From a candidate division BRC1 bacterium HGW-BRC1-1 (GTDB taxonomy: Bacteria; Sumerlaeota; Sumerlaeia; Sumerlaeales; Sumerlaeaceae): a stretch of DNA of 64,000 bases. Below are positions 3,024-44,850 of the stretch, piece after piece. A program made the position numbers and the translations under genes. The DNA lies in NCBI GenBank assembly GCA_002842095.1, contig PHCB01000001.1, forward strand, positions 310,001 through 374,000, given 5' to 3'. Each line of letters begins with the position of its first letter. The stretch's first letter is position 1. The notes below the pieces were generated by a model. It worked only from the letters and a program-made list of their open reading frames with translations. It was not told the origin of the DNA and searched no databases.

Positions 3024-4052
3024 ATGACCCCCTCAACCGGCACTTCCGAGTCCAACGTAAATTTCCCACGGCGTCTGGATCTATCCCAAACGCCCACGCC
3101 CCTCCAAATCATGCCACGGCTCACCGCATTTGTTGGCGGACCCAAAATCTGGTTCAAGCGCGATGACCTCACAGGCAGCGCGCTTGCGGGCAACAAAATC
3201 CGCAAACTGGAATTTTCACTGGCCCAGGCTCTCGATCTTCAAGCGAAGGTCATCATCACCGCCGGCGGCATCCAGAGTAACCACTGTCGCGCCACAGCCT
3301 TTGCTTGCGCGCAACTGGGCTTGAAATGCCACCTGATACTCCGCGGCGGCCCCGGCGACACCGCAGCCGATGGCAACCTGCTGCTGGACCATCTGGCCGG
3401 TGCCGAAATCACCTTCGTCCCCCACGAACAATACAGCACCTCGCGCCCCGAAATCCTCGCGGGCATCCAAAATGACTACGAGTCCATGGGCCTCACCTCC
3501 TACTGGATCCCCGTCGGGGCCTCCAACGCCATCGGCTCCTTTGGCTACATTCGCGCCTTCGATGAAATGATGGCGCAGATCGTCCAAGACAACCTGAACA
3601 TCCGACACGTAGTAACCGCCGTGGGATCAGGGGGAACCCTCGCGGGCCTCATCGCGGGCCGTGCATGCACCAGCCACGCCACGCCCCCGAAACTCTGGGG
3701 CGTCAACGTCTGCAACGATGCACCATTTTTCGAAGAAGAAATCCGGGGCATTCTTCACGAGTTGAAGGAAAGCTACAAGGTTCCGGTGAATGCCCAAACG
3801 GAAGAGGTCAACATCATCGACGGCTACGTGGGCGAAGGCTACGCCATCCCCTATGCCGCCGAGATGGAAACCATCCGACAGGTTGGCCAGGTCGAAGGGC
3901 AGGTGCTTGATCCGGTCTACACCGGCAAGGCGTTCCATGCCCTCATCGAGGAATGCAAAGCCGGCCGATTCACCCCCGACGAAGACGTGGTCTTCATCCA
4001 TACGGGCGGGATTTACGGACTCTTCCCCGCGCGCGACCAACTGGGGTTTTAA
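3024..4052 (+). CDS. PLP-dependent D-cysteine desulfhydrase / ACC deaminase family protein
   Basis: This 342-residue cytoplasmic fold-type II PLP enzyme belongs to the D-cysteine desulfhydrase/ACC deaminase family. The likely Schiff-base lysine is K58 in AGNKIRKLEF. The Gln-Ser-Asn-His stretch near residue 84 is the conserved substrate/PLP segment, and VGSGGTLAG near residue 200 is the phosphate-binding loop. Family members release sulfide, pyruvate and ammonia from D-cysteine or deaminate ACC; sequence alone does not decide the substrate here. A GTG four codons upstream (3012) is an alternative start. It converges on carA with a 16-base gap and no clear terminator between them. Confidence 0.82.
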   Translation: MTPSTGTSESNVNFPRRLDLSQTPTPLQIMPRLTAFVGGPKIWFKRDDLTGSALAGNKIRKLEFSLAQALDLQAKVIITAGGIQSNHCRATAFACAQLGLKCHLILRGGPGDTAADGNLLLDHLAGAEITFVPHEQYSTSRPEILAGIQNDYESMGLTSYWIPVGASNAIGSFGYIRAFDEMMAQIVQDNLNIRHVVTAVGSGGTLAGLIAGRACTSHATPPKLWGVNVCNDAPFFEEEIRGILHELKESYKVPVNAQTEEVNIIDGYVGEGYAIPYAAEMETIRQVGQVEGQVLDPVYTGKAFHALIEECKAGRFTPDEDVVFIHTGGIYGLFPARDQLGF

Positions 4053-4068
4053 GCGAACAAGTCCGCCA

Positions 4069-5232
4069 TTACGCCTTTTCGATAAACTTCCGGAAGCGCC
4101 CAAACAGATAGCCCGAATCATGGGGACCGGCGCTGGCCTCGGGGTGGAATTGCACGGCGGTGAACTTGAGCGTCTCGTCTTCGAAACCCTCCAGCGTGCC
4201 GTCGTTCAAATTGACATGGGTCACGGCCGAGGTTGAAGGCAGCGTGGTCGGGTCAACACAGAACCCGTGGTTCTGCGAGGTGATCTCCACACGATTGGTG
4301 AGAAGATCCTTCACGGGGTGATTCGCCCCATGGTGCCCGAACTTCAGCTTGAACGTATCGCCACCACACGCCAGCCCGAGAATCTGGTGGCCCAAACAAA
4401 TGCCGAACAGCGGCACGCGCCCGACGAGGGACTTCACCTCGCCCAGCACATCGCTCAGGGCGGCGGGGTCGCCGGGTCCGTTACTCAGAAAAACTCCATC
4501 GGGCTTCAGCGCCAACACTTCCTGCGCCGTCGTGTGGGAGGGAACAATGGTCACCTTCATACCCGCGGCAACCATGAGATCAGGAATGGTGCGCTTCATA
4601 CCGAAATCGTATGCGACCACTTTCGGGCCATCGGCCAGGCCAGCCATCGCCGTGCGATACTCGCCGCCGGTCAAACCGCCCAAGTCACCACCGCGCTCGC
4701 CACGGGACGGTGCAATCGTGTGTTCGATGCTCTGCGCAATTGTTACGTCCTTCACCAGATTGCGCCCTTCCATGCGGGGAGAATCCAGCGCCACCTGGCG
4801 TAAAACTTCCGCATCATGGCGCTTGGTGGAAACCACCGCGCTCATGCTGCCGCACGAGCGCAGATGCAGCACCAGCGCGCGCGTGTCGATCCCCTCGATC
4901 CCCACGATCCCTTCGCGCTTCATGTAATCCTGAATGCGCTCCTCGCTGCGCCAGTTGGAGGCCACGCGCGATGCCTCGCGAACGATGAAACCAGCCACGT
5001 GGGCCCGCGGAGACTCTGCGTCGAGTTCTGAAATTCCATAATTGCCGATGAGCGGATAGGTCATCACGACCATTTGTCCGGAGTAGGAAGGATCTGTGAG
5101 AACTTCCTGATAACCCATCATACCGGTGTTAAAAATAATCTCGGCTGCCTGCTCGCCGTGTGCCCCGAAGGAGCGCCCCCGAAAGACGGTGCCGTCTTCC
5201 AAAACCAGTGTCGCTGTCGTCTCGTTTATCAT
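4069..5232 (-). CDS. carA: Carbamoyl-phosphate synthase small subunit (glutaminase)
   Basis: This 387-residue protein is the glutamine-hydrolysing subunit that channels ammonia to CarB for carbamoyl phosphate, feeding arginine and pyrimidine synthesis. The N-terminal CPSase small-chain domain begins MINETTATLVLEDGTVFRG. The C-terminal class I glutamine amidotransferase domain has the nucleophile elbow FGICLGHQILGLA and the catalytic His-Glu pair in VQFHPEAS. The frame extends 27 codons further upstream, but family comparison favours the ATG at 5232. carB is not adjacent. acyP is divergent, with a 188-base shared upstream region. Confidence 0.95.
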   Translation of the reverse strand: MINETTATLVLEDGTVFRGRSFGAHGEQAAEIIFNTGMMGYQEVLTDPSYSGQMVVMTYPLIGNYGISELDAESPRAHVAGFIVREASRVASNWRSEERIQDYMKREGIVGIEGIDTRALVLHLRSCGSMSAVVSTKRHDAEVLRQVALDSPRMEGRNLVKDVTIAQSIEHTIAPSRGERGGDLGGLTGGEYRTAMAGLADGPKVVAYDFGMKRTIPDLMVAAGMKVTIVPSHTTAQEVLALKPDGVFLSNGPGDPAALSDVLGEVKSLVGRVPLFGICLGHQILGLACGGDTFKLKFGHHGANHPVKDLLTNRVEITSQNHGFCVDPTTLPSTSAVTHVNLNDGTLEGFEDETLKFTAVQFHPEASAGPHDSGYLFGRFRKFIEKA

Positions 5233-5420
5233 CTGTCCGTGGTTACCAAACCTTTCGGAGTTTGTTTCTATTCGGCGCAGGGGGGGCAAGCGCAAAGGAA
5301 AAGTCGCACCCATTGCTATGTACCGGTCAAATTCTTGCGCTTTCGCTTGCAGCGAACCACCCGTTGTGGCGTTTCAAACGTCATGCTGATAGCGACCACC
5401 TCAACCCAAGTCCCATCATC

Positions 5421-5687
5421 ATGATACTCTCGGCCGTAATCCGGGGGCGCGTGCAGGGCGTCGGGTTCCGTTATTGGGTGCTGCAACAGGCCCGCGAACA
5501 GGGCCTGAAGGGATGGGTGCGCAACGCTCCCGACGGTTCCGTGGAGGTCGAAGCGCAGGGAACGGAAGATCAACTTTTCGAGTTCGAGCAAACTCTCTGG
5601 CGGGGGCCGGTGCTGTCGCGGGTGGACAAGGTGCACGTCAGCCGCCACCACAGTCCCCGAGATTTCAACGTTTTCGATATCCGCTAA
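5421..5687 (+). CDS. acyP: Acylphosphatase
   Basis: This 88-residue protein hydrolyses the carboxyl-phosphate bond of acylphosphates. The N-terminus has the family signature RGRVQGVGFRYW, with the phosphate-binding Arg at position 17, and the catalytic Asn at position 35 in GWVRNAPDGSVEVEAQG. The length is typical. The reading frame is open well upstream, but the ATG at 5421 gives a standard-length protein. It is divergent from carA and ends 31 bases before the opposing radical SAM gene. Confidence 0.93.
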   Translation: MILSAVIRGRVQGVGFRYWVLQQAREQGLKGWVRNAPDGSVEVEAQGTEDQLFEFEQTLWRGPVLSRVDKVHVSRHHSPRDFNVFDIR

Positions 5688-5718
5688 ACGCAACGTCGAA
5701 AGCGGTTAGCCGTCGGCC

Positions 5719-6873
5719 TCAGCGGCTCAAAAATCCTGCGCCGGACAACTCCGCCGGCCAGTCATCGCCGTGGGAATAATCCGCGCGATTGGGCATGCGC
5801 GTCACCTGATGGCAGCGGCGACAGATATGCGGGATACGCATGTTGCGCCAGTTGCCCCAGAAGCTCTGCGCCCTCGGGCCCAGCAACAATTCCATGATTT
5901 CCGTTTCATCCACATTGCCGAAAGAATGGTGGGGGAATTCGCCAAATTCGCTCCGCACCGGCAGATGGCAGCACGGGCTGATGTTGCCCATCCAGTCCAT
6001 GAAAAAGGAACTCAGCGGATCCACCAGGCAGTTGCCCCGCTCCCCCATGTGGAAGGGGTGCAGGCGGAACTCCATGCCACTTTCCCCGGCAATCTTTTCG
6101 CACTCTGCGATGATGTCCGCATACTCCGCCGCGTCGATCAGCAGATTGCCGTCGTTGTCGTGGATGTTCTGCTCGGTTTCAAATTCAAGGGCGTTGCGTT
6201 CGATAAACTTCGCCACGAACAGCGGGAAGCCGCAGCGCGCCGCCTCACGCACGGCCAGCGGCAGTTCACGGAAATTATCGCGCATCACCACAAACACCCA
6301 ACCGGTGCCAACGTGCTCCAGGCCGCGCTCGCGCAGCAGCGCGTGAAAGTTCTCCGCATTGCGCAAAACGCGGTCCCATTTGCCACCGACACGAATGTAC
6401 TCGAACGTCTCCGCTGTCCCGGCATCGATGGAAATCTGCAGATTATCCAGCCCCGCATCCAGCAACCGATCTGACTTCTCACGGTTTAGAATCGTGCCAT
6501 TGGTGGACAGGCGCGGCGACGCCCCGCAACTATGCACCAGCGCCACAAACTCGTGCAGGTCATGGTGCAGCAACGGCTCGCCGTACCCGGTCAGCACCAC
6601 CGCCTCCAGATGGCGCATGAGAGGCACCAGACGCATGAACCGGTCCATGGGCATCAGGCCCTCTTTATGCCCTTCCAGCAATCTCGGACACATCCGGCAG
6701 GCGAGATTACACAGGAAGCTCGCTTCCACATAAATATGGGTCAGGTCTGCCAGGCGGGGATGCAGGCGGCTGCGCGACAATTGCTCTCGCGCCGCGACGC
6801 CCACGCGAGCCTTGAAGGCGCGCCCGCCCTCAAACTTTTCGAGGGCCGTGGAAACTTTGGTTCGGATGGACAT
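5719..6873 (-). CDS. Radical SAM/SPASM-type protein, unknown substrate
   Basis: This protein of about 384 residues is a radical SAM enzyme. The SAM-coordinating [4Fe-4S] Cys motif is CNLACRMC at residues 55-62, followed by GYGEPLLH and a STNGTILN strand of the TIM barrel. Further cysteines near the C-terminus (CLVDP, SPCCH, CRRCHQ) look like a SPASM domain binding auxiliary clusters. Such proteins modify peptides or small molecules; no precursor peptide is visible nearby, so the substrate is unknown. I favour the ATG at 6873, giving MSIRTKV; a GTG at 6930 is possible. It is divergent from rex. Confidence 0.75.
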   Translation of the reverse strand: MSIRTKVSTALEKFEGGRAFKARVGVAAREQLSRSRLHPRLADLTHIYVEASFLCNLACRMCPRLLEGHKEGLMPMDRFMRLVPLMRHLEAVVLTGYGEPLLHHDLHEFVALVHSCGASPRLSTNGTILNREKSDRLLDAGLDNLQISIDAGTAETFEYIRVGGKWDRVLRNAENFHALLRERGLEHVGTGWVFVVMRDNFRELPLAVREAARCGFPLFVAKFIERNALEFETEQNIHDNDGNLLIDAAEYADIIAECEKIAGESGMEFRLHPFHMGERGNCLVDPLSSFFMDWMGNISPCCHLPVRSEFGEFPHHSFGNVDETEIMELLLGPRAQSFWGNWRNMRIPHICRRCHQVTRMPNRADYSHGDDWPAELSGAGFLSR

Positions 6874-7081: not shown

Positions 7082-7747
7082 ATGTCGACGATGATGACAG
7101 ATTCAGAAACCACCGAAGCGCGGGGCGCTCCGCTGCCCAGCGTGAGACGATTACCGCTGTACCTCAACGTGGTGCGCGCCCTGCGCGACTCCGGACGCGA
7201 AATGGTAAGTTGCACCCACATCGCCGAGGAGTTGCAGGCAGACCCCACACAGGTTCGCAAGGATCTCGCCATCACCGGCATCACGGGCAAACCCAAGGTG
7301 GGTTACGACGCCGTTGAGTTGATTGAAGCGATCGAGGTTTTTCTCGGATGGAATAACATCTCCGACGCCTTCCTGGCCGGCGTGGGCAACCTCGGAACCG
7401 CGCTGCTCGGCTACCGCCGGTTCGAGAATCTCGGCATGAACATCGTGGCCGCCTTCGACAGCAACCAGACCAAGGTCGGGCGCACGGTGGAGGGTCGCAA
7501 GATTCTGCCCCTGTCACGCATGACCAACCTCGCCTCGCGCATGCACATCCACATCGGAGTGCTGGCCGTGCCGGCGTCGGCCGCCCAGACCGTGGCCGAC
7601 CAAATGGTGGAGGGCGGCATCCTCGCCATCTGGAATTTCACCACCGCCCGTCTCAACGTTCCCTCCAACGTCATCGTGGAACGCGCAGATTTTTCACAAA
7701 GCCTCGCGGCCCTCACGAGCCGCCTCAAAAGGACGCTGAAATCATGA
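7082..7747 (+). CDS. rex: Redox-sensing transcriptional repressor Rex, variant DNA-reading region
   Basis: This 221-residue protein is a Rex repressor, which senses the NADH/NAD+ ratio and derepresses fermentative genes when NADH is high. It has an N-terminal winged helix (about residues 23-75) and a Rossmann domain with GVGNLG at 100-105. After the conserved QVRKDL the usual SYFGEFGKRG-type sequence is replaced by AITGITGKPKVGY, so the DNA-reading and wing residues are non-canonical. The ATG at 7082 is preceded by GGGAGA at 7064-7069. It overlaps the next gene by 4 bases (ATGA), coupling it to the hydrogenase genes, and is probably autoregulated through the palindrome at 7002-7027. Confidence 0.88.
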   Translation: MSTMMTDSETTEARGAPLPSVRRLPLYLNVVRALRDSGREMVSCTHIAEELQADPTQVRKDLAITGITGKPKVGYDAVELIEAIEVFLGWNNISDAFLAGVGNLGTALLGYRRFENLGMNIVAAFDSNQTKVGRTVEGRKILPLSRMTNLASRMHIHIGVLAVPASAAQTVADQMVEGGILAIWNFTTARLNVPSNVIVERADFSQSLAALTSRLKRTLKS

Positions 7748-8301
7748 ACACGGCCCCAGCCGCCCCTGAAGCGATCACCGCAACCGCTGCACCATCCGCA
7801 CCCGCCGAGGCGGGCGCCGAGCGCACCCGCAAGTTCGAAAAATGTGTCGAGGTTCTGAACCGCTACCACCGCAACCCCGCCAAGCTCATCCCCATCCTTC
7901 AGGAGATTCAGGAGAGTTACCGTTACCTGCCCGAGGAAGTGCTGGTATTCGTGGCCACCTCGGTGGGCCTGCCTCCCGCCCGCGTGTTCGGCGTGGCGAC
8001 GTTCTATGCACACTTCACCCTGAAGCCCAAGGGCAAGTACGTCATCCGTCTGTGCGACGGCACCGCCTGCCACGTGCGCGCCAGCCAGCCGATTCTCGAC
8101 GCACTGCGCGGTCGGTTGAGTCTCACCGCCACCGAGCAAACCACCCCCGACATGCTGTTCACCGTGGAAACGGTGAGCTGCCTGGGAGCCTGCGGTCTGG
8201 CCCCCGTCGTGGTGATCAACGAAGACGTTCACGGCCAGATGACCCCCGAAACCGCCGTGGCACTGGTGGATGAAATCTGCACGAAGGAGCAAGGCGCATG
8301 A
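7744..8301 (+). CDS. hydC: NAD-linked [FeFe] hydrogenase small subunit (HydC/NuoE-like)
   Basis: This 185-residue thioredoxin-like [2Fe-2S] subunit is homologous to NuoE. The cluster ligands are visible as C104-x4-C109 (CDGTAC) and C146-x3-C150 (CLGAC). An N-terminal helical bundle precedes the ferredoxin fold, after an Ala/Pro-rich leader of about 25 residues. In trimeric hydrogenases this subunit partners HydB for electron transfer with NAD(H). It overlaps rex by 4 bases and hydB by 4 bases, so the three are translationally coupled. Confidence 0.9.
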   Translation: MNTAPAAPEAITATAAPSAPAEAGAERTRKFEKCVEVLNRYHRNPAKLIPILQEIQESYRYLPEEVLVFVATSVGLPPARVFGVATFYAHFTLKPKGKYVIRLCDGTACHVRASQPILDALRGRLSLTATEQTTPDMLFTVETVSCLGACGLAPVVVINEDVHGQMTPETAVALVDEICTKEQGA

Positions 8302-10205
8302 GTATCGCCCAGGATCGCATGACCCTCGAACAAATCGCCGAGGAATACGCTCGTCTGAGTGAGCCGGTAACGCGCCGCATCATCATCTGCGCGGGCACCG
8401 GTTGCGTGGCCAACGGTTCGCTGAAGGTGCACGCCGCCCTGCGCGACGCCGTTGAGCAGGCCGGACTGCCCGTAACCATCGAATTGAAAACCGAAGCGCC
8501 CCCCGAAGGCAGCGTTCACATAAGCCGCAGCGGATGCCAGGGTTTCTGCCAGCAGGGACCACTGCTCACAATCCTCCCCGAGGGAATTCTATACACCCAC
8601 GTCCACGCACCCGATGTGCAGGAAATCGTCGAGCGCACCCTCATGCACGGCGAGGTGATTGATCGCCTGCTCTTCAATGACCCCGCCACGGGCTGCCACT
8701 GCCACGGTATCGACGACATCCCGTTCTATCAGCGCCAGCAACGCACCGTGCTCAAGGAATGCGGCGTCATCTGCCCCGAGGATCTGGCCGAATACGTTTC
8801 CCATGGCGGCTACTTCGCCGCACGCCGGGCGTATTGCGATATGAGCCCCGAGCAAATTTGCGCGACGATCCTTGAGAGTGGCCTGCGCGGACGCGGCGGC
8901 GGTGGATTCCCCACCGGACGCAAGTGGGAGCTGACCCGCATCCAGACCGAGCCCAAGAAGTACATCGTGTGCAACGGCGACGAAGGCGACCCAGGGGCCT
9001 TCATGGATCGCAGCGTGATGGAGGGCAACCCCCACGGATTGCTGGAAGGAATGATGATCGCCGCCCGCGCCATCGGTGCCGACGCCGGTCTCATCTACGT
9101 TCGCGCCGAATACCCCCTTGCGGTGAAACGCCTGAAGCGCGCCGTGGCGGATGCCGAGGCCATGGGTCTGCTGGGCGATGACATTTTTGACACCGGCCTG
9201 ACGCTGCGCATCGAGGTGATGGAAGGTGCCGGCGCGTTTGTCTGCGGCGAAGAAACCGCCCTCCTCGCCAGCGTGGAAGGCAAGCGCGGCATGCCGATGC
9301 CCAAGCCACCCTTCCCGGCCCAGAAGGGGCTGGACGGGAAGCCCACCGTCATCAACAACGTCGAAACCCTCGCCAGCGTGCCTGTCATCATGCGTCATGG
9401 CGCGGCGGCATACAAGGCCGTGGGTACGGAAAAATCCCCCGGCACGAAAACCTTCGCCCTCACCGGTCACGTTGCCAACACCGGCCTCATCGAGGTGCCC
9501 TTCGGAACCACGCTGGGCGAAATCGTGATGAACATCGGCGGCGGCGTCATAGATGCCAAGGGCAACCCCGATCCCGCCGGTTTCAAAGCAGTGCAGATCG
9601 GTGGCCCCAGCGGCGGCTGCCTGACCCAAGCGCACCTCGACCTCCCGCTCGATTTCGACAGCCTGCGCGAAGTGGGTGCCATGGTTGGCTCGGGCGGTCT
9701 CGTCGTCATGAACAAGAAAACCTGCATGGTCAAAGTTGCCCGCTTCTTCATGCAGTTCACACAAAACGAAAGCTGTGGCAAATGCGTCCTCTGCCGCGAA
9801 GGCACCAAGCAGATGCTCGCCCTTCTCGACGACATCATCGAAGGCAACGGCACGCGCGAGACCCTGGTACTGCTGGAAACCGTTGCCCGGGTGGTGGCCA
9901 AGGGCAGCCTTTGCGGCCTCGGCAAAACAGCCCCCAGCCCGGTCCTCAGCACCCTGCGCTACTTCCGCGACGAGTACCTCGCCCATGTGGACCACAAGCA
10001 CTGCCCCACCGGAAACTGCAAGGCTCTGGCCCGCCCCGTTATCATCGAGGAGAAGTGCAAAGGCTGCACCGTTTGCGGACGCAAGTGCCCCGTGGGAGCC
10101 ATTGAGGGCGAGCGCAAACAGCCCCACCACATCAACCCCGAAGTCTGCATCAATTGCGGCGCATGCCTCGAAACGTGCAAGTTCGGCGCCATCGTTTACA
10201 ACTGA
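8298..10205 (+). CDS. hydB: NAD-linked [FeFe] hydrogenase NADH-binding subunit (HydB/NuoF-like)
   Basis: This 635-residue NuoF-like flavoprotein has, in order: a thioredoxin-like [2Fe-2S] domain (C31, C36, C80, C84); the FMN/NADH core with GRGGGGFPTG near 197 and CNGDEGDPGAFMDR near 225; an SLBB segment; the ESCGKCVLCREG cluster-binding motif; and two C-terminal ferredoxin motifs (CKGCTVCGRKC and CINCGACLETC). This extended layout is that of HydB/HndC from electron-bifurcating hydrogenases rather than plain complex I NuoF. It oxidises NADH or reduces NAD+ and passes electrons to HydA. The start overlaps hydC by 4 bases. Confidence 0.93.
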   Translation: MSIAQDRMTLEQIAEEYARLSEPVTRRIIICAGTGCVANGSLKVHAALRDAVEQAGLPVTIELKTEAPPEGSVHISRSGCQGFCQQGPLLTILPEGILYTHVHAPDVQEIVERTLMHGEVIDRLLFNDPATGCHCHGIDDIPFYQRQQRTVLKECGVICPEDLAEYVSHGGYFAARRAYCDMSPEQICATILESGLRGRGGGGFPTGRKWELTRIQTEPKKYIVCNGDEGDPGAFMDRSVMEGNPHGLLEGMMIAARAIGADAGLIYVRAEYPLAVKRLKRAVADAEAMGLLGDDIFDTGLTLRIEVMEGAGAFVCGEETALLASVEGKRGMPMPKPPFPAQKGLDGKPTVINNVETLASVPVIMRHGAAAYKAVGTEKSPGTKTFALTGHVANTGLIEVPFGTTLGEIVMNIGGGVIDAKGNPDPAGFKAVQIGGPSGGCLTQAHLDLPLDFDSLREVGAMVGSGGLVVMNKKTCMVKVARFFMQFTQNESCGKCVLCREGTKQMLALLDDIIEGNGTRETLVLLETVARVVAKGSLCGLGKTAPSPVLSTLRYFRDEYLAHVDHKHCPTGNCKALARPVIIEEKCKGCTVCGRKCPVGAIEGERKQPHHINPEVCINCGACLETCKFGAIVYN

Positions 10206-10241
10206 CCCCCACCCGTTCAAAATAAAGCGAGACGGAATATC

Positions 10242-12272
10242 ATGGAACAGAAAACCGATCAAAAGCCCACTGTCCTCGTCGACGGACGCGAAGTTACCAT
10301 CGACGGCGAGCGCAATCTGCTGGAGCTGTGCCGCAAGGCCAACATCGACATCCCCACGTTTTGCTATCACTCAAACCTGAGCGTGTACGGCGCATGCCGC
10401 CTATGCCTGGTGGACGTGAAAGGCCGCGGCGTGGTGACGAGCTGCACCACCATACCCGAGGCGGGCATGGAATTCAAAACCACCACCGGCGAGATCCGCG
10501 AGATGCGCAAAATCGCCGTGGAGCTTCTGCTGGCCAACCACGACATGGACTGCCCCACCTGCCCCAAGAGCACCACCTGCAAGCTGCAGGATCTCGCCCG
10601 CAAGCTGGGCGTGCGCGAAGTGCGCTTCCGCAAAACCAACCGCGTTGAACCGATCGACCGTTCCAGCCCTTCCATCGAACGCAACCCCAACCGCTGCGTG
10701 TTGTGCGGCGATTGTGTGCGTATGTGCGACGAGGTGCAGAGCATCGGCGCCATCGACTTCGCCTACCGCGGCAGCGAATGCAGCGTAGTCCCCGCCTTTG
10801 GCAAGGACCTCAACACCGTGGAATGCGTCCACTGCGGCCAGTGCGTCGCAGTCTGCCCCACGGGCGCGCTCACGCCGCGCAGCGAAATCGACGCCGTGTG
10901 GGCCGACATCGACAACCCCAAAAAGGTTGTCGTCGCGCAGGTTGCTCCCGCTGTCCGCGTGGCCTTCGGTGAGCAGTTCGGACTGGCTCCCGGAGCCGCC
11001 GCAACGGGTCGCATGGTAGCCGCCCTGCGCCGCATGGGATTCGACCAGGTATACGACACCTCCTTCGCCGCCGATCTAACGGTGATCGAGGAAGGCCACG
11101 AACTGCTCGGCCGCATGGCCAGCGGCGAGAAGCTGCCCATCTTCACGTCCTGCTGCCCGGCGTGGGTGAAGTTCAGCGAGCAGTACTTCCCCGAGTTGCT
11201 CCCGAACCTCAGTTCCTGCAAATCCCCCCAGGAGATGTTTGGCAGTCTTGCCAGATACATCCTGCCCAAGCAACTGGGGGTGGCACCCGAGGACCTCGTG
11301 ATCGTGAGCATCATGCCCTGCACCGCGAAAAAGTTCGAAGCGAAGCGACCGGAATTCCAGCACGACAACATCCCCGGCGTCGACCACGTGCTCACGACGC
11401 AGGAACTCATCACCATGACCGACGCCGCGGGTCTGAACTTCCCGAGCCTTGAACCCGAATCGTTCGACATGCCCCTCGGCTTCAAAACCGGTGCCGGTGT
11501 CATCTTCGGTTCCAGCGGTGGCGTCACCGAGGCGGTGCTTCGTTTCGCCGCAGAGAAGGTAACAGGCAAGCCGCTTACCCAGGTGGAATTCCACGAGGTT
11601 CGTGGAAACGAGGGGATCCGCGAAGCCACGGTCGCCCTGGGTGAAGCATCGGTCCGTGTGGCCATAGTTCATGGTCTCGCCAATGCGCGCGCACTGGCCG
11701 AGCGGGTGCGTGATGGCCACGCCCACTACGACGTGGTGGAAGTGATGGCCTGCCCCGGTGGCTGCGTGGGCGGAGCCGGTCAACCGGTCTCCAACGACCC
11801 CGGCGCCCGCGCACAACGCGCCAAGGGTCTGTACGAAGCCGACCGCACCACCGATCTGCACAAGAGCCAGGACAACCCCATGATCCGCGAGATGTATGAA
11901 ACGTGGCTGGGCGAACCCGGTGGACCCCTCGCCCACGAACTGCTGCACACCCACTACGCCAGCCGCAAGCGCATCACCGACTCCGACTTCACCGTGCTAC
12001 CATCGGCGGAGAAACGTCCGGTCTGCGTGTCCGTGTGCGTCGGCACGAACTGCTACCTGAAGGGGTCGCAGGAGATCCTTAGTAAGGTTCTCAATCACGT
12101 GGAAACGAACCATCTCCACGGCGCGGTCGAGGTTAAGGGAACGTTCTGTTTCGAGAACTGCGGCCAGGCACCCAACGTCGCCGTGAACAATCAATTAATA
12201 GAATCGGCGACCTTTGAGAAAGTCATGGAAGCCGTAAACGAAGCCAGTTGCCCAGCTAAGTCACCGGCCTGA
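10242..12272 (+). CDS. hydA: [FeFe] hydrogenase catalytic subunit (HydA/HndD type)
   Basis: This 676-residue protein is the catalytic subunit that evolves or oxidises H2. It has an N-terminal NuoG-like [2Fe-2S] domain (ligands from FCYHSN and CRLC), a His-type [4Fe-4S] segment (HDMDCPTCPKSTTC), two ferredoxin clusters (CVLCGDCVRMC and CVHCGQCVAVC), then the H-cluster domain. The three signatures are intact: L1 TSCCPAW, L2 MPCTAKKFE and L3 MACPGGCVGGAGQP. A C-terminal thioredoxin-like [2Fe-2S] domain (CVGTNC and CFENC) is the extension found in trimeric bifurcating enzymes. It starts 36 bases after hydB. The maturases HydE, HydF and HydG are not in the window. Confidence 0.95.
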   Translation: MEQKTDQKPTVLVDGREVTIDGERNLLELCRKANIDIPTFCYHSNLSVYGACRLCLVDVKGRGVVTSCTTIPEAGMEFKTTTGEIREMRKIAVELLLANHDMDCPTCPKSTTCKLQDLARKLGVREVRFRKTNRVEPIDRSSPSIERNPNRCVLCGDCVRMCDEVQSIGAIDFAYRGSECSVVPAFGKDLNTVECVHCGQCVAVCPTGALTPRSEIDAVWADIDNPKKVVVAQVAPAVRVAFGEQFGLAPGAAATGRMVAALRRMGFDQVYDTSFAADLTVIEEGHELLGRMASGEKLPIFTSCCPAWVKFSEQYFPELLPNLSSCKSPQEMFGSLARYILPKQLGVAPEDLVIVSIMPCTAKKFEAKRPEFQHDNIPGVDHVLTTQELITMTDAAGLNFPSLEPESFDMPLGFKTGAGVIFGSSGGVTEAVLRFAAEKVTGKPLTQVEFHEVRGNEGIREATVALGEASVRVAIVHGLANARALAERVRDGHAHYDVVEVMACPGGCVGGAGQPVSNDPGARAQRAKGLYEADRTTDLHKSQDNPMIREMYETWLGEPGGPLAHELLHTHYASRKRITDSDFTVLPSAEKRPVCVSVCVGTNCYLKGSQEILSKVLNHVETNHLHGAVEVKGTFCFENCGQAPNVAVNNQLIESATFEKVMEAVNEASCPAKSPA

Positions 12273-12888: not shown

Positions 12889-15800
12889 ATGTCGCCATTT
12901 TATGGAGCCAAGCATTCCGTGCGTCCAATAACCGGTCTCTTCGCAGCCATACTGACCGTTTCTCTTTTTGCGTTGAGCACGAGCCCCGCTCTCGCCGATT
13001 CGGGTGATGAGGCATATATCACCACTCACGTCCTGACACTGGCGCAATCGAGTCCGGCCAGGGGCGCCGCCTCCAGCGAGGTTGAATCGTTCGCCACGGC
13101 GCTGGCCAACAAAGCCATACAACCCTTCGAAGGCCTGAAGCCTCTTCTTCCCGAGGGCTCTGCTTGCGAGAGCGCCATGGTCGACGGCAAAGTCCTCACG
13201 CTGCGCTTCGTGGTGCCTGCGGGCACGGTCATTGGAGACGGCGACCTCGAAACCCTGAACATGATTCTAATGCGCTACATCGTAATGTCTCAGGACCTCA
13301 GTGAACTCCGCATGGAAGCGCGGGAATCTACTCCCGCCGGCGTTGCCGTTCGCACAGTCCCAAACGCCACTCCCCGCCCCCTTCACACCTTCGTACCCGC
13401 CCCGCCTCCCATCCCCACACCGATCGCATCTCCGGATGAGCCTGCTGCGACGCAGGCACCTGACTATCAAAAGCTGTACAAAGAACTCCAAAAGCAAACC
13501 GACCCCGGCGCCGCAAATCGTTCCGCCGGTCAAAACTCCATCGCCACCGGCAGCCAGCCTGCGGGCGTTTTGTCGGGCCGCACCATGTTCTTTTCCCCCG
13601 GCCACGGCTACGTATCCAACGACTCCGGGTCCTGGAGTACTCAACGTGGATTTTCGAAAGGCATGAACGAGGACTTTGGAAATCTTGATCAGGCCAATTA
13701 CTTCGCATCCCTCGTCTTCAACGCCGGAGGAACCGTGGTGTGCATGCGCCCCCTTGGTAATCAGGTAAAGGAAGTTGTCCTCGACAACACCAGCAACGAC
13801 GTGACGTTCACGCCCTCCGCCGCCTCATGGACTCTGTCAGGGTCCGGCACCGATAACTATGGCAACAGCACCGGCAATAACATGCGCTACATCAACAGCC
13901 AGCCCCTGGAAACCGCCACCGCCACTTACGCCCCCATAATTCCAGAAGCCGGTTGGTACCCCGTTTACTGCTTTGCCAATGCCAGCAACAACCGCTGCTC
14001 GGGCCAGCTTTACCGGATCAAGCACTCCGCCGGAGAAACCCAGGTCCGCGTGAATCACCGCCGCGTTGGTCGCGGATGGGTCTGGCTGGGCAATTATTAT
14101 TTCTACGCGGGAAAAAACGCCGTCACCGGTGCAGTCGTCATCTCCAACGAAACCCCTTCACCAGGTACCGCAGGGTTAATCATCGCCGACGCCATCCGCT
14201 TTGGCAACGGCATGGGTGACATCAATTCTCACGGCAGCATCTCCGGTCTTGAACGCGAGGCGGAAGCCAACCGCTACTGGCTGCAAGCCTCCGAAGCCCC
14301 GGCCAGCGTATATGATGCAAGCGACACCGATGCGAACGACAACGTGGGTGCTCCCGCCCGCATGTCTGCATACATGCAGCAAGACGACGGACAGGGCTTT
14401 AACGGCGATATTTACCTCGGCTTCCACAGCAATGCCTTCAACGGCGTTGCACGCGGGAGCGTTGGTCTTATCACAACCCAAGCTACGGTGACAAACCAAC
14501 CCGCTTGGGCTGCCCTGTGCAGCGACACCCTCGACACAATGGCGAACATCGAAGACGCCAACTGGGAATTCACCTGGGGCAACTATAGCCAAAGTGTGTT
14601 ATCCGGTTCCTACGGTGAATTCGGTGGAGCCCTTAACGGCCAGATGTGCGGCACCATCATCGAAGTCGCGTTCCACGATAACGATAGCGACGCAAAATTG
14701 ATGCGCGACCCGAAGGTGCGTTACGTCATCGCCCGCAGCCAGGTCCACGCGGCCATCAAGTATTTCAATCAATTCAACAGCAACCCGCTGGCCTACTTCC
14801 CCGAGCCACCTCAGAGCGTCCGTGCCACAAACGTCGCCGGTGGCATCCGGGTGGCATGGGCAGCCGTGGCCGCCACCAGTGGCGGTGCCCAGGCAGCTAC
14901 TGGATATAAGGTGTACACCTCCCCCGACGGACGCAACTTCATGCTCGCCCAGTCTGTGTCAGGTAATACGACCACGCAGTCAGACCTGACGGGCATTCCT
15001 CTGGGTGAAGTACGGTACATTCGCGTCAGCGCGACGAACCCCGGTGGCGAATCCAGCCCGAGCAATGTCGTAGCCGCCCGGTCCACCGGAGGACAGATCA
15101 ACCCGCCGGTGCTGATCGTGGATGGTTATGACCGCCTCGATCGCTTTAACAACGTCCCACGCTTTCCCGGCAACCCCGAGGATACCTGGTGCGAACGCCT
15201 TTTCTGGCGTCGAAATAACCGATTCGACTATGCCCACGAAGCTGCCGGCTCTGTTGCCGCAGCGGATCGTTATTTCGATATGGTTTCTAACGAATCCATC
15301 ATCTCCGGCGCCGCATCGCTCTTGAATTACGAAACTGTGGTGTGGATGACCGGTGAAGAGGACGCAGCGAACCAAACCCTCGACGCCACCGAGCGTGGAA
15401 AGATTCAGGCGTTCCTCGCCGCCGGGAACACAACCCACAACACCACGGGCCGCAAGCTTTTCATCAGCGGTGCCAATGTGGGCGATCACCTGGACACTCA
15501 AAACGCGGCGCGTTCGTTCTACAACTCCGACCTCCACGCAGATGCTGCGGGACGCACGTCTAAAATCTACTCCGCCACGGGCAATGGTGGTGGTTCTCTC
15601 GCAGGAGTGAGTGTCAACTTCGCCCCCGGTCCGGAAACTTACGATGTGGAAAACGCGGACATCCTGGCAGCCAGCAACGGATCAACCGTCCTCATGAGCT
15701 ACGACGGTACGCCCGGTGGAGACTTTTCTTTCGAGCCGTTCGACGTTATTGGGGGCTGGAAAGATCCGAATTACTCGGGCAGCACCAACGCCGACGCAGC

Positions 15801-16407
15801 AAGCACATTTGACATAGACACAGCCGTCAAACGCCAGGGCAGCGGCTCAGGCAAACTTTACTACGTCTGGGGCACGGGTAGCCTCATTCGCGAGTACAAC
15901 AGCAGTCGCCCCCCGCTGCCCAGTAACGCGGTGGTTTCAATCTGGGTCTATGGTGACAACAGTGGCAACAACATCACGTTCTGCATGCGCGACCCCGAAG
16001 ACTCCGAATTATTTGAGAACCTGCCCATGACCATCAACTTTACCGGTTGGCAGAAAATGACATGGGATATGGCGAATGATCCGCGTACACGCTTCTTTGG
16101 TGCGGGAGACAACACTTTCACGGGCGCCACCGCACAGCTTGACTCTGTAATTCTGCGCAAGGTGGGTGCCGCCGCCAGCGGAACGATCTATGTCGACGAC
16201 ATGACCTACCCCGTTACTCCGGGCGCCTCGCCGGGACCCGCTGCGGTGATCTACACAAGCGCAGCAAATCGCGTGGTCACGTTCGGCTTCCCCTTCCAGG
16301 CGATCTCGAACGAAGTCGAACGCAACCTCCTCATGAACAATACTCTGGATGCGCTCGGTACATCCAGGGATGCATCTTCATCGGTGGCAGATTGGTCAAT
16401 CTATTAA
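12889..16407 (+). CDS. Giant secreted N-acetylmuramoyl-L-alanine amidase-like protein with golvesin insert, copy 1
   Basis: This 1172-residue exported protein has a signal peptide at about 1-36 (ending SPALA). A conserved region of unknown type (45-145) and a Pro-rich linker follow. The Amidase_3-like catalytic domain appears split: H239 (SPGHG), E261 (NEDFGNL), H513 (FHSNA) and E592 (IEVAFHDN) match the zinc ligands and catalytic Glu. A golvesin/Xly-type domain (about 293-440) sits between the second and third of these. Then come an Fn3 domain (640-732), a Rossmann-like region (738-940, VLIVDGYDRLDRF) and a beta-rich carbohydrate-binding-like domain (950-1107). Databases may label such proteins 'xanthan lyase', but I see no PL8 lyase domain. 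An AAAGG lies 13 bases before the ATG. Likely acts on peptidoglycan in the periplasm or outside. Confidence 0.8.
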   Translation: MSPFYGAKHSVRPITGLFAAILTVSLFALSTSPALADSGDEAYITTHVLTLAQSSPARGAASSEVESFATALANKAIQPFEGLKPLLPEGSACESAMVDGKVLTLRFVVPAGTVIGDGDLETLNMILMRYIVMSQDLSELRMEARESTPAGVAVRTVPNATPRPLHTFVPAPPPIPTPIASPDEPAATQAPDYQKLYKELQKQTDPGAANRSAGQNSIATGSQPAGVLSGRTMFFSPGHGYVSNDSGSWSTQRGFSKGMNEDFGNLDQANYFASLVFNAGGTVVCMRPLGNQVKEVVLDNTSNDVTFTPSAASWTLSGSGTDNYGNSTGNNMRYINSQPLETATATYAPIIPEAGWYPVYCFANASNNRCSGQLYRIKHSAGETQVRVNHRRVGRGWVWLGNYYFYAGKNAVTGAVVISNETPSPGTAGLIIADAIRFGNGMGDINSHGSISGLEREAEANRYWLQASEAPASVYDASDTDANDNVGAPARMSAYMQQDDGQGFNGDIYLGFHSNAFNGVARGSVGLITTQATVTNQPAWAALCSDTLDTMANIEDANWEFTWGNYSQSVLSGSYGEFGGALNGQMCGTIIEVAFHDNDSDAKLMRDPKVRYVIARSQVHAAIKYFNQFNSNPLAYFPEPPQSVRATNVAGGIRVAWAAVAATSGGAQAATGYKVYTSPDGRNFMLAQSVSGNTTTQSDLTGIPLGEVRYIRVSATNPGGESSPSNVVAARSTGGQINPPVLIVDGYDRLDRFNNVPRFPGNPEDTWCERLFWRRNNRFDYAHEAAGSVAAADRYFDMVSNESIISGAASLLNYETVVWMTGEEDAANQTLDATERGKIQAFLAAGNTTHNTTGRKLFISGANVGDHLDTQNAARSFYNSDLHADAAGRTSKIYSATGNGGGSLAGVSVNFAPGPETYDVENADILAASNGSTVLMSYDGTPGGDFSFEPFDVIGGWKDPNYSGSTNADAASTFDIDTAVKRQGSGSGKLYYVWGTGSLIREYNSSRPPLPSNAVVSIWVYGDNSGNNITFCMRDPEDSELFENLPMTINFTGWQKMTWDMANDPRTRFFGAGDNTFTGATAQLDSVILRKVGAAASGTIYVDDMTYPVTPGASPGPAAVIYTSAANRVVTFGFPFQAISNEVERNLLMNNTLDALGTSRDASSSVADWSIY

Positions 16408-16466
16408 CCGGTCCATCTCCCGGCTTTTACCTCCGGCAGGTTGAAATTTGAAATGGCAACATCGCC

Positions 16467-16508
16467 CCCCGGCACCGATCCGAAAGGATCAGTGCCGGGG
16501 TTTTTTTT
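16467..16508 (+). terminator. Intrinsic terminator of giant amidase gene 1
   Basis: CCCCGGCACCGATCC (16467-16481) pairs with 16486-16500 around a GAAA tetraloop with a single mismatch, followed by eight T (16501-16508). Nearly the same hairpin follows the paralogue at 20237. Confidence 0.93.
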
Positions 16509-16560
16509 GATACTCGCTGGCACTCTTGGAAGCCCTTAATTTAAGCCCGCCCCGCCGGGA

Positions 16561-16637
16561 GATTAATCCATCAGTCCCATATACGACTTGACGGTCGACT
16601 ATCCCCCCTCCCATAAAGTATACTACGTATTATGTTA
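16561..16637 (+). promoter_or_regulatory. Conserved upstream block of giant amidase gene 2
   Basis: This is the ungapped counterpart of 12751-12827, with ATTAATCCA, CTTGACGGTCGACTAT (TTGACG at 16588) and GTATTATGTTA (16627-16637). CAGAAAGGT before the start codon is also shared. Sequence between the islands has diverged, which points to selection on the islands. Confidence 0.5.
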
Positions 16638-16699
16638 TTCTTCCAACAGCCCGAAAAACGGGCAAGACCCCTCCTACTCAGAAAGGTCAAGCAACCCCC

Positions 16700-19600
16700 A
16701 TGTCTTTTTTTTCTCTGACGAACCACTATCTGCGCTCACACGGCTCACTCTTTGCGGCAATGTTAACTGCCTCTCTCCTTGTGCTCACTCCCGCCCCATC
16801 GCTTGCCGACTCCGGCAATGACGATTACCTTACAACGCCGGTCCTTACCCTCGCCGAATCGACTCCCGCCAGGGGCGCTGCTCCCGGCGAGGTTGAGTCG
16901 TTCACCATGGCACTGGCCAACCAGGCCATTCAGCCCTCCGAAAATCTGAAACCGCTTCTTCCCGCCGGCTCTGTTTGCGAGAGCGCCACGGTCGATGGAA
17001 AAGTCCTCATGGTGCGCTTCGTGGTTCCGGCAGGCACCGTGATGGGCGACGGCGAACTCGAAACTCTTAATATGATTCTGGTGCGCTACGTCGTAATGTC
17101 TCAGGATTTGGCAGAACTTCGCATGGAAGCGCGCGAAGCCTCCCCCGCCGGCGTTGCCGTTCGCACCACGCCAACCGCCGCCACCGCCCGGCCGCTGCAT
17201 AGTTTCGTGCCTGCTCCTCCCCCGATTCCCACGCCCATCCCTTCATCGGATGAGCCCGCAGCCACCCAGGCACCCGACTATTCAAAACTTTACAAAGAGC
17301 TCCAAAAACAAACCGACCCCGGAGCGGCTAACCGTGCTGCGGGACAAAACTCCATCGCAACCGGCAGCCAGCCCGCGGGCGTTTTGTCGGGCCGCACCAT
17401 CTTCTTCTCCGGAGGCCATGGTTACACCTCCGACGATGCGGGGTCTTGGGCCACCCAACGCGGCTTTTCCATGGGAATGAACGAGGATTTTGGAAACCTC
17501 GATCAGATCAATTACTTCGCCTCACTCGTCTTTAACGCCGGAGGCACCGTGGTGGCGATGCGACCCCTCGGTCATCAGGACAACGAGGTCGTTCTCGATA
17601 ATACCAGCAGCGACGTGACCTTCACACCGTCGGCCGCCGCCTGGACCCTCGCTTCCTCAAGCACGGACAACTACGGCAACTCCACCGGCAACGACATGCG
17701 TTACATCTCCAGCCAGCCGACCGAAACCGCCACGGCCACCTACGCCCCCAACATCCCCGAAGCCGGTTGGTATCCCGTGTACTGCTTCGCCAACGCCAGC
17801 AACAACCGTTGCTCGGGGCAACTTTATCGCATCAAGCACTCCGCCGGAGAATCGCAGGTCCGCGTCAATCACCGCCGCGTCGGCCGCGGATGGGTCTGGC
17901 TGGGCAATTACTATTTCGCCGCAGGCAAAAACTCTGCCACTGGCTCCGTGGTCATCTCCAATGTCACCCCCTCACCCGGCACGGCGGGCTTCGTCATCGC
18001 CGACGCCATCCGGTTTGGTAATGGCATCGGCAGCATCGCCGAACACAGTACCCTGTCGGGATACGAGCGCGAGGCCGAATGCGCCCGGTACTGGCTGCAA
18101 GCCTCTGAGGCGCCGTCCAGCGTTTATGACCCCAGCACCACCGATATTAACGACAACGTGAGCGCGCCCCCCCGCATGGCCGCTTACATGCAACAGGACG
18201 ACGGCCAGGGCTACAACGGCGACATCTACCTCGGATACCACAGTAATGCCTATCTCGGCACCAGCCGCGGCAGTGTGGGGCTCATAACCAGCGCTGCTAC
18301 CGTCACAAACCAGGCAACATGGGCGGCGCTGTGCAGCGACACACTCGACACAATGGCCAACATCGAGGACGCCAATTGGGAATTCACCTGGGGTGCCTAC
18401 GGCAACTCCACACTCACCGCATCGTATGGCGAAATTGGCAGCGGCCTCAACGGCCAGATGTGCGGCACCATCATCGAGGTCGCCTTCCACGACAATCTTA
18501 CCGACGCCAAGCTTATGCGCGATCCGAAGGTGCGTTACGTCATCGCGCGCAGCCAGCTCCACGCTGCAATCAAGTACTTCAATCAATTCGACGGTGGCGC
18601 CATCGCCTATCCTTCAGAGCCACCCCAACGTGTGCGCGTTACCAATCTGGCCGGAGGCATGAGGGTTGCATGGGCACCTGTGGCCGCCACCTCAGCCGGT
18701 CCTCAGGCCGCAACCGGATACCGCGTGTACACGTCCACCGATGGACGAAACTTCATCCTCGCCCAAAGCGTGGCTGGTTACTCAAACACCCAAGCAGTCC
18801 TTACGGGTATTCCGCAGGGCGAAGTTAAGTACGTTCGGGTTACCGCCACCAACGCCGGCGGCGAATCCAGCCCGAGCAATGTCGTGGCGGCGCGCGCAAC
18901 AGATGGAAAAACCAACCCGCCGGTGTTGATCGTCGATGGTTACGACCGCCTCGACCGCTTCAATAACGTTCCCCGCTTCCCCGCCAATTCCGAGGATACC
19001 TGGTGCGAGCGTCTTTTCCCGCGGCGCAACAACAGCTACGATTACGCCCGCGAAGCGGCAAGTTCCATCGCGGCTGCCGGCCGTTATTTCGACATGTCCT
19101 CCAACGAATCCATCATCGCGGGCGATGTCTCGCTCACCAATTATGAGACCGTAGTCTGGATGACCGGTGAAGAAGACGCCGCGAACCAAACCCTCGACGC
19201 CACCGAACGCTCCCGCATTGAGAGCTTCCTCGCGGCGGGCAACAGCAGCCACAACAGTCAGGGCCGCAAGCTCTTTATCAGTGGGTCCAACCTTGCGGCG
19301 CACCTCGATACGGGCGGTGCTGCTGCGACATTCTACAACGGTCAGCTCAGAGCCGACGCGGCGGGACGCACTACCAGCAACTACTCGGCCACCGGCAGCG
19401 CAGGCGGAGCCCTTGCGGGTGTGAACGTCACCTTCGCCCCGGGGCCCGAAACATACGATGTGGAAGCCGCCGACATTCTGGCCACGTCCGGTGGTTCAAC
19501 CGTACTTATGAGCTATAGCGGCACACCCGGAGGCACCTTCTCCTTCGAGCCCTTCGACGCCATTGGAAGCTGGGTAGATCCCAACTTCTCCGGAAGCACC

Positions 19601-20221
19601 AACGCCGACTTGGCTTCGACGTTCAACATCAATACCTCGGTGAAACGACAGGGCAGCGGCTCCGGGGAGCTCTACTACGTGTGGGGCACGGGCAACCTTA
19701 TCCGCGAGTACAGTGGCAACCGCCCATCGCTACCCTCCGACGCCGTCCTCTCCGTATGGGTCTATGGCGACAACAGCGGCAACAACATCTCCTTCGGCGT
19801 GCGCGACCCCGACGACGGCGAAATCTTCGAGAATCTGCCCATGACGATCAACTTCACCGGTTGGCGACAAATGACGTGGAACCTCGCCAGTGATCCGCGA
19901 ACACGCTTTGCAGGCGCAGGCGATAACACATTCACGGGAGCCACCGCGCAGCTCGATGCCATCATGCTGCGCAAGGTGGGCGCCGCCGCCAGCGGAACCA
20001 TTTACGTAGACGACATGACCTATCCGACAGCTCCTGGCGTTTCCCCGGGTCCCGCTGCCGTGTCCTACACAAGCGGTGCCAATCGAGTGGTCACGTTCGG
20101 ATTCCCCTTCGAGGCGATCACAAGCGACAGCCAACGCAATCTGCTCGTGAACGGCGCGTTTAACTCACTTGGAACATCCTATAACGTCCCTGTCAGCTTG
20201 TCGGCTTTTGAAGTCGAATAA
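16700..20221 (+). CDS. Giant secreted N-acetylmuramoyl-L-alanine amidase-like protein with golvesin insert, copy 2
   Basis: This 1173-residue protein is a full-length paralogue of the preceding gene with the same order of domains: signal peptide (ending PSLA), N-terminal conserved region, Pro-rich linker, split amidase with golvesin insert, Fn3, Rossmann-like and carbohydrate-binding-like domains. In residues 201-300 of copy 1, I count 87 identical positions. The putative catalytic residues are kept as H240, E262, H514 and E593, although the metal-binding motif reads SGGHG instead of SPGHG. Divergence is greatest in the signal peptide and linker. It has its own upstream block and terminator, so it is likely a separate transcript. 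Confidence 0.8.
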   Translation: MSFFSLTNHYLRSHGSLFAAMLTASLLVLTPAPSLADSGNDDYLTTPVLTLAESTPARGAAPGEVESFTMALANQAIQPSENLKPLLPAGSVCESATVDGKVLMVRFVVPAGTVMGDGELETLNMILVRYVVMSQDLAELRMEAREASPAGVAVRTTPTAATARPLHSFVPAPPPIPTPIPSSDEPAATQAPDYSKLYKELQKQTDPGAANRAAGQNSIATGSQPAGVLSGRTIFFSGGHGYTSDDAGSWATQRGFSMGMNEDFGNLDQINYFASLVFNAGGTVVAMRPLGHQDNEVVLDNTSSDVTFTPSAAAWTLASSSTDNYGNSTGNDMRYISSQPTETATATYAPNIPEAGWYPVYCFANASNNRCSGQLYRIKHSAGESQVRVNHRRVGRGWVWLGNYYFAAGKNSATGSVVISNVTPSPGTAGFVIADAIRFGNGIGSIAEHSTLSGYEREAECARYWLQASEAPSSVYDPSTTDINDNVSAPPRMAAYMQQDDGQGYNGDIYLGYHSNAYLGTSRGSVGLITSAATVTNQATWAALCSDTLDTMANIEDANWEFTWGAYGNSTLTASYGEIGSGLNGQMCGTIIEVAFHDNLTDAKLMRDPKVRYVIARSQLHAAIKYFNQFDGGAIAYPSEPPQRVRVTNLAGGMRVAWAPVAATSAGPQAATGYRVYTSTDGRNFILAQSVAGYSNTQAVLTGIPQGEVKYVRVTATNAGGESSPSNVVAARATDGKTNPPVLIVDGYDRLDRFNNVPRFPANSEDTWCERLFPRRNNSYDYAREAASSIAAAGRYFDMSSNESIIAGDVSLTNYETVVWMTGEEDAANQTLDATERSRIESFLAAGNSSHNSQGRKLFISGSNLAAHLDTGGAAATFYNGQLRADAAGRTTSNYSATGSAGGALAGVNVTFAPGPETYDVEAADILATSGGSTVLMSYSGTPGGTFSFEPFDAIGSWVDPNFSGSTNADLASTFNINTSVKRQGSGSGELYYVWGTGNLIREYSGNRPSLPSDAVLSVWVYGDNSGNNISFGVRDPDDGEIFENLPMTINFTGWRQMTWNLASDPRTRFAGAGDNTFTGATAQLDAIMLRKVGAAASGTIYVDDMTYPTAPGVSPGPAAVSYTSGANRVVTFGFPFEAITSDSQRNLLVNGAFNSLGTSYNVPVSLSAFEVE

Positions 20222-20236
20222 CCAGAAATAACAAAA

Positions 20237-20280
20237 CCCCGGCACCGATCCCCAAAGGGTCAGTGCCGGGGTATTTTTTT
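20237..20280 (+). terminator. Intrinsic terminator of giant amidase gene 2
   Basis: CCCCGGCAC (20237-20245) pairs with GTGCCGGGG (20263-20271), with a partly paired inner segment and an A-rich loop, followed by TATTTTTTT. It is a slightly decayed copy of the hairpin at 16467-16508. Confidence 0.9.
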
Positions 20281-43422: not shown

Positions 43423-43443
43423 GGTCCAAGCCCGTTCTAAATT

Positions 43444-43489
43444 AAAAATCCGGGAAGACACCTTCTGCGAAGAAGGCACTTCCCGGATT
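43444..43489 (-). terminator. Intrinsic terminator of the golvesin amidase gene
   Basis: On the minus strand AATCCGGGAAG pairs with CTTCCCGGATT, and an inner GCCTTCT/AGAAGG pairing extends the stem around a short loop. A TTTTT run follows (A run 43444-43448 on the plus strand). It lies about 45 bases past the stop and could also slow transcription from the converging M55 gene. Confidence 0.85.
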
Positions 43490-43535
43490 CGTTATTTCAG
43501 AGTCTCCCCGTTTTGAGGAGACCTGAAGGATTGGA

Positions 43536-44626: not shown

Positions 44627-44850
44627 TCCCGTCACCTCTCTTCTGCCCCGCCGGGCGAAGAAAAGGCCCTCATGCTTTCCTCCCTTCCAGAGATACGATA
44701 TATTTAGCCCCAACGGTTACGAGGGGCTGAAAAATCAAGAGCCACCCAACGCCTGCATCACATCTTTTGTTGCCATTAAGGTCCGCAGAGACACTGTTTA
44801 GCTGGCTGCGGTACGACCTTCGTAACAACCCCACTTTTCACCCGAGGTGT

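Follow-up and report, generated by a model that had tools for sequence, protein, structure and literature searches.

Two predicted exported amidases of a Sumerlaeota bacterium with a golvesin-type domain nested in their Amidase_3 fold

We analysed a 64,000-nucleotide stretch of the genome of candidate division BRC1 bacterium HGW-BRC1-1 (Sumerlaeota; contig PHCB01000001.1, positions 310,001 to 374,000), hereafter the window, in which two large open reading frames (ORFs) encode protein A (12889-16407, forward strand, 1172 residues) and protein B (16700-20221, forward strand, 1173 residues). Both are present with the coordinates and lengths given in a preliminary description of this DNA. As judged from a predicted structure and from alignments, A and B each hold one complete Amidase_3 fold that is interrupted by a golvesin-type domain (Table 1). 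The two proteins are almost certainly relatives of the Amidase_3 enzymes and probably active peptidoglycan amidases. We consider it very likely that they are, as proposed, exported zinc-dependent N-acetylmuramoyl-L-alanine amidases with the golvesin domain nested in the fold; zinc dependence, catalysis, the peptidoglycan substrate, glycan binding and export are all inferred from the sequences and the models.

The preliminary description had placed four putative amidase residues of both proteins in two pairs separated by about 250 residues that include a golvesin domain, and the residues were found accordingly. From E261 to H513 of A there are 252 residues, of which the golvesin domain makes up about 145, the remainder belonging to the amidase itself, as a helical stretch of increased length. 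Golvesin_C (PF25275) matched A (79.7 bits, E 2.7e-22) and B (88.1 bits, E 6.7e-25) above its curated cut-off of 31.6 bits; the Pfam match to Fn3 was weak. For Amidase_3 (PF01520), the Pfam scan gave a sub-threshold match to the second half of A only (residues 504-619, E 0.0013) and no match in full-length B; A scores 19-25 bits, below the curated cut-off of 27. When the golvesin domain was cut out of A, the Amidase_3 profile aligned across the junction (profile positions 5-169, E 2.5e-5), and three homologues excised in the same way were above the cut-off (L007, 36.5 bits; L087 of B. fragilis, 3548-6454, 30.2 bits; L060, 52.6 bits), L007 being above it intact also (34.9 bits). No match for A or B was found in NCBIfam, and phmmer of A against the PDB returned only Fn3-type and other chance-level matches. 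All of the 76 homologous cores aligned had Golvesin_C; fn3 was detected in 72 of them and Amidase_3, at E up to 1, in 67.

Further evidence was obtained by profile comparison with hhalign, which had been suggested in the preliminary description and which gave a clear match. The golvesin-excised core (97 sequences) aligned with canonical Amidase_3 domains from the host genome with an E of 5e-18, while the controls (golvesin against amidases, excised core against golvesin, and five column shuffles) gave E values of 0.04 or worse. Taken alone, the N-terminal amidase half matched Amidase_3 with Prob 90 and E 1.6e-6, and the C-terminal half with Prob 98.6 and E 1.2e-15. In these alignments, the His of DPGHGG lines up with H239, the Glu of the EKD-type motif with E261, the His of S(L/V)H with H513, and the catalytic Glu of LLE with E592. 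From their positions in the family, the H-E-H residues and the last Glu are the predicted Zn ligands and catalytic residue of A. The quartet is invariant across all five copies of the split amidase in the host genome and complete in 96 of 97 aligned homologous cores, far beyond chance.

We modelled the core of A (residues 215-736) with AlphaFold2, using 75 homologues in the alignment. The predicted local distance difference test (pLDDT) was 93.4 and the predicted template-modelling score (pTM) 0.94. In this predicted model, the two halves form one Amidase_3 fold, as the preliminary description had anticipated; this was judged by fold alignments that run across both halves (model residues ~8-420) and include nearly all target residues. 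The N-acetylmuramoyl-L-alanine amidase crystal structures 4rn7, 5emi, 7rag, 8c2o and 4bin were matched with Z 20-22; for C. difficile 4rn7, VIA-align gave Z 21.8 over 181 of 186 residues with a root-mean-square deviation of 2.1. Nostoc AmiC2, CwlD, Rv3717, and E. coli AmiA and AmiC gave Z values of about 20-21, and each of these alignments runs from about model residue 11 to 416. The inserted domain (model residues 76-228) matched residues 901-1040 of Paenibacillus xanthan lyase (6f2p; Z 20.4, 139 residues, 30% identity). In A, the chain leaves the amidase after strand 2 (GTVVCMRP, residues 281-288) and re-enters before the helix SGxxREAEANRYW (residues 452-464).

Table 1. Coordinates, in the window, of the features of proteins A and B and of a separate amidase-golvesin gene
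Feature	Coordinates	Strand	Basis or remarks
A, putative Sec signal peptide (hydrophobic stretch ending ALA-DS)	12889-12999	+	judged by eye
A, N-terminal domain and Pro-rich linker, possibly GerMN (Germane)-like	13000-13554	+	weak profile matches
A, amidase N-terminal half, residues 225-292	13561-13764	+	hhalign, AlphaFold2 model
A, putative first metal ligand H239	13603-13605	+	
A, putative second metal ligand E261	13669-13671	+	
A, nested golvesin/xanthan-lyase-type carbohydrate-binding module, residues 296-439	13774-14205	+	PF25275, 6f2p fold match
A, amidase C-terminal half, residues 445-632	14221-14784	+	hhalign, AlphaFold2 model
A, putative third ligand H513	14425-14427	+	
A, putative catalytic E592	14662-14664	+	
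A, Fn3 domain, residues 640-729	14806-15075	+	Pfam; model against Fn3 domains, Z ~14-15
A, GATase1/ThuA/GH42-trimerisation-like Rossmann domain, first part, residues 738-944	15100-15720	+	model, Z 13-16
A, CBM11/FlaA-like jelly roll (second nested domain), residues 945-1112	15721-16224	+	model
A, Rossmann-like domain, last strand and helix, residues 1113-1160	16225-16368	+	model, alignment
B, amidase N-terminal half	17375-17578	+	alignment; H240 17417-17419, E262 17483-17485
B, nested golvesin domain, residues 297-440	17588-18019	+	PF25275
B, amidase C-terminal half	18035-18598	+	alignment; H514 18239-18241, E593 18476-18478
B, Fn3 and Rossmann-like domain with nested jelly roll	18620-20182	+	alignment with A
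346-residue amidase, Amidase_3 (26-203) and Golvesin_C (219-343) side by side	43536-44576	-	Pfam; un-nested, outside the split family

The fold (Z 20-22) and the four metal and catalytic positions are thus the same as in the known Amidase_3 amidases (AmiA/AmiC, CwlD, CwlV, Rv3717). Because these are the residues and the fold of known N-acetylmuramoyl-L-alanine amidases, A and B represent a new architecture rather than a new chemistry, and the suggestion that they form a new enzyme class does not hold. They are set apart by the 145-residue golvesin domain inserted behind the second strand, by another enlarged stretch ahead of the third ligand, and by a first motif that reads SxGHG instead of DPGHGG. 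In E. coli AmiA, AmiB and AmiC, a regulatory insert also lies within the Amidase_3 domain, but it is a short autoinhibitory helix and not a folded sugar-binding domain. The insert of A has its homologue at the C-terminus of Paenibacillus xanthan lyase (Golvesin_C), where the domain is appended to a polysaccharide lyase, whereas in A and B it is nested within the amidase. As the preliminary description had noted, a nearby 346-residue protein contains both domain types side by side, its Amidase_3 domain being ordinary and uninterrupted. Golvesin domains were also seen beside GHL10 and NAGPA catalytic domains (L015, 1387-3414; L070, 6537-8192), which marks the domain as a general accessory module.

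The Fn3, Rossmann-like and carbohydrate-binding-like regions reported for the C-terminus were all recovered by fold comparison of models. The composition given by the preliminary description was therefore right, but it had overlooked that the jelly roll is itself nested within the Rossmann-like domain. In a model of the C-terminal 443 residues of A (pLDDT 83.5, pTM 0.71), a Rossmann/flavodoxin-like domain spans model residues 5-437 and resembles GATase1, ThuA-like and GH42 trimerisation domains (Z ~13-16), with a CBM11/FlaA-like jelly roll inside it at about 212-384. A and B are thus doubly nested. The jelly roll matched FlaA1, CBM11 and xanthanase modules with Z ~12-14; a relation to other jelly-roll proteins was considered and set aside, these fold matches being read as a shared fold only. 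In B (jelly roll at 19535-20038), Pfam found fn3 (E 3.2e-4) and FlaA (E 1.7e-4). The jelly roll is missing from most homologues, in which the flanking segments join directly, and present in B, L097, L062, L099, L064 and L106; in the alignments, its insertion is the patchier of the two. A Fn3 plus Rossmann-like tail (28% identity over 298 residues) was also observed in a 535-residue protein on contig 24 of the host genome (L014, 1327-2931), the N-terminal part of which looks NlpC/P60-like by eye, yet has no Pfam match. At the other end of A, the GerMN assignment stayed weak, the Germane profile matching 5 of 26 homologous N-terminal regions with a best E of 7.6e-4.

A and B are tandem paralogues with 78% identity end to end. 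An AGAAAGG element resembling a ribosome-binding site precedes the ATG of both genes, and about 190 nucleotides of 5' flank can be aligned between them. A terminator-like hairpin followed by a T run lies 3' of A (16467-16500, forward strand) and a similar hairpin 3' of B (20230-20278). Because the 5' flanks align and a similar hairpin stands behind each gene, the duplication seems to have copied the flanks too; flanks and hairpins also suggest that A and B are probably transcribed separately. The ratio of nonsynonymous to synonymous substitutions (dN/dS) between A and B was about 0.13 overall and about 0.1-0.13 within the amidase and golvesin parts, values that are rough since dS is near 1.2. 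This low ratio indicates that both copies are kept under selection.

A genome scan found at least 555 stretches encoding a split amidase; because its patterns sit within the golvesin domain, the scan is blind to insert-free forms. The best 79 of these came from Sumerlaeota, Verrucomicrobiota, Kiritimatiellae, Planctomycetota, Chloroflexota, Bacteroidota (B. fragilis, Phocaeicola, Prevotella), Ignavibacteria, Calditrichia, Marinimicrobia and others. The split core was present in 27 of 40 Sumerlaeota genomes, with 1-9 copies each. In 60 genomes of the genus Bacteroides, the split amidase accounted for about 65 of 75 golvesin loci, mostly as ORFs of 966-1083 residues, the remaining loci being of about 1105 residues, of about 667 residues, or weak; by these matches, most sampled Bacteroides genomes carry it. 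The golvesin-excised profile, by contrast, can detect insert-free forms; when it was run against 61 relatives, the strong matches listed consisted of two segments on either side of the insert, with no uninterrupted close relative among them. In a golvesin-domain tree made by a quick method, the nested copies were on one side of a branch with a support of 85, below the 95 mark, which is consistent with a single insertion event but no proof of it. The nested architecture is real, ancient, conserved and fixed in position. The preliminary description was right about its reality, but missed that the design is ancient and widespread and not a local oddity. In the open-access literature searched, we found no description of a golvesin-split amidase architecture.

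A working model can be proposed for A. The chain would begin the amidase fold with the first ligand, H239, and the second, E261. After the second strand, it would leave the fold and build the carbohydrate-binding golvesin domain, before coming back to finish the amidase with H513 as third ligand and E592 as catalytic residue. The strand that precedes the insertion should have its C-terminal end towards the active site; judging from this fold, the golvesin domain would probably sit next to the substrate groove and hold the glycan strand in place for cleavage of the bond between N-acetylmuramic acid and L-Ala by the amidase. Fn3 would serve as a spacer, and the Rossmann-like domain with its nested jelly roll would probably function in assembly or further sugar binding.

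Several observations weigh against this interpretation or limit it. Taken alone, the N-terminal half gives a weak sequence signal, and one homologue lacks two of the four residues. In that sequence (L031, Phycisphaerales bin621), the alignment shows Q and L in place of H513 and E592; it is likely a degenerate or repurposed copy, unless the alignment has slipped. The neighbours of A and B in the window (an [FeFe] hydrogenase and msrB) are not wall genes and are uninformative on function. In some relatives, the neighbours do point, modestly, to peptidoglycan as the substrate. A Peptidase_S13 gene (PBP4-type D-Ala-D-Ala carboxypeptidase) lies directly downstream, with gaps of 9 nucleotides, in a member of the Sumerlaeaceae (L058) and one of the Melioribacteraceae (L078). 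Glucosamine_iso/PIG-L proteins are encoded upstream in Bacteroidota, and a GH3 enzyme upstream in a Marinimicrobia genome (L068). This evidence comes from a minority of relatives, however, with Peptidase_S13 in 3 and Glucosamine_iso/PIG-L in 3 of the 51 scanned neighbours.

The golvesin insert could also have a regulatory role in an active amidase, keeping the active site covered, or opening it, depending on the binding of a partner or glycan. Gating insertions are known in the Amidase_3 enzymes AmiA/B/C, the fixed position of the insert would suit mechanical coupling, and the un-nested amidase-golvesin fusion in the same genome indicates that targeting as such does not require nesting. We regard this as possible, if rather unlikely, since golvesin-type domains are also appended modules in other secreted proteins and isolated carbohydrate-binding modules (CBMs) of the Bacteroides proteins Cbeg4 and Cbeg5 bind glycans (PMC9166713). 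An amidase whose substrate is a different N-acyl amino-sugar or glycopeptide, for example in host or algal glycans, would fit the several sugar-binding-like domains, the large secreted form, the up to 9 copies per genome and the unusual SxGHG motif; it is unlikely given that the fold and the quartet match those of peptidoglycan amidases and that a PBP4-type carboxypeptidase is among the neighbours in two phyla.

Cbeg4 and Cbeg5 raise a further alternative, that of a lectin on a dead amidase-like scaffold, as their CBM constructs bind N-glycan motifs and they are reported as lectins (PMC9166713). A dead scaffold would lose the quartet, and its conservation in 96 of 97 homologues across phyla makes this alternative quite improbable for A and B. 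There is, finally, the name under which homologues are found: in public records, two annotated homologues from Bacteroidota bear the name "xanthan lyase", which presumably goes back to the homology between the golvesin domain and the C-terminal, accessory domain of the true Paenibacillus xanthan lyase. That accessory domain (901-1040 of 6f2p) is the only part matched, and the searches of Pfam, PDB sequences and folds listed no polysaccharide-lyase catalytic family, apart from a weak Lyase_N jelly-roll match at residues 1016-1108. We consider a xanthan lyase activity extremely unlikely, and the concern that this label hides the amidase is borne out by the Bacteroidota records. In a B. finegoldii record, the gene for this protein is itself named "xanthan lyase", and the one directly upstream is annotated as glucosamine-6-phosphate deaminase.

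Other genes of the window were noted in passing. A set of [FeFe] hydrogenase ORFs (NuoE-, NuoF- and HydA-like; 7744-12272) is directly upstream of A. The 346-residue amidase-golvesin gene adjoins, on the opposite strand, a Peptidase_M55 D-aminopeptidase gene (together 42604-44576), which suggests a wall-peptide or D-amino-acid scavenging pair. A 1020-residue ORF (44767-47829) contains six CarboxypepD_reg-like repeats, and a further 644-residue amidase (48523-50457) combines a C-terminal Amidase_3 with an N-terminal Glucodextran_B-type domain.

According to Cohen et al. (2022), the Cbeg4 and Cbeg5 proteins of commensal Bacteroides are lectins that consist of a signal, Fn3 and a CBM6-CBM35-CBM36_like_2 domain and lack an enzymatic domain; two characterised proteins with the latter domain were named, xanthan lyase and golvesin, and the expressed Cbeg5 spans residues 21 to 957 (PMC9166713). 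Compared by description, they resemble the split amidases in being secreted Bacteroides proteins with a golvesin-type CBM and Fn3 and in size (957 residues for Cbeg5 against the class of ~966-1083), and differ in being published as lectins. Pfam detected Golvesin_C, fn3 and only a sub-threshold Amidase_3 in the B. finegoldii member and Golvesin_C alone in that of P. distasonis, the same picture as published for Cbeg4/5. Because their size and visible domains match, Cbeg4 and Cbeg5 may belong to the split-amidase family and be hidden amidases. We lean slightly towards the wider view that a large, ancient family of peptidoglycan amidases is hidden under the name xanthan lyase, that Cbeg4 and Cbeg5 are members, and that their effect on monocytes could be partly enzymatic.

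Because profile searches overlook or under-score a split domain, a large number of probable wall-active enzymes of Bacteroidota, Planctomycetota, Verrucomicrobiota and Sumerlaeota are likely to carry the name of an accessory domain. The nested geometry also lends itself to a direct test of the way in which a sugar-binding module may steer or gate an amidase. The turnover of peptidoglycan in gut Bacteroides matters for the release of immune-active fragments; should Cbeg4 and Cbeg5 indeed be split amidases, some of their effect on monocytes might be due to enzymatic attack on peptidoglycan, and a published lectin/effector would have to be re-examined.

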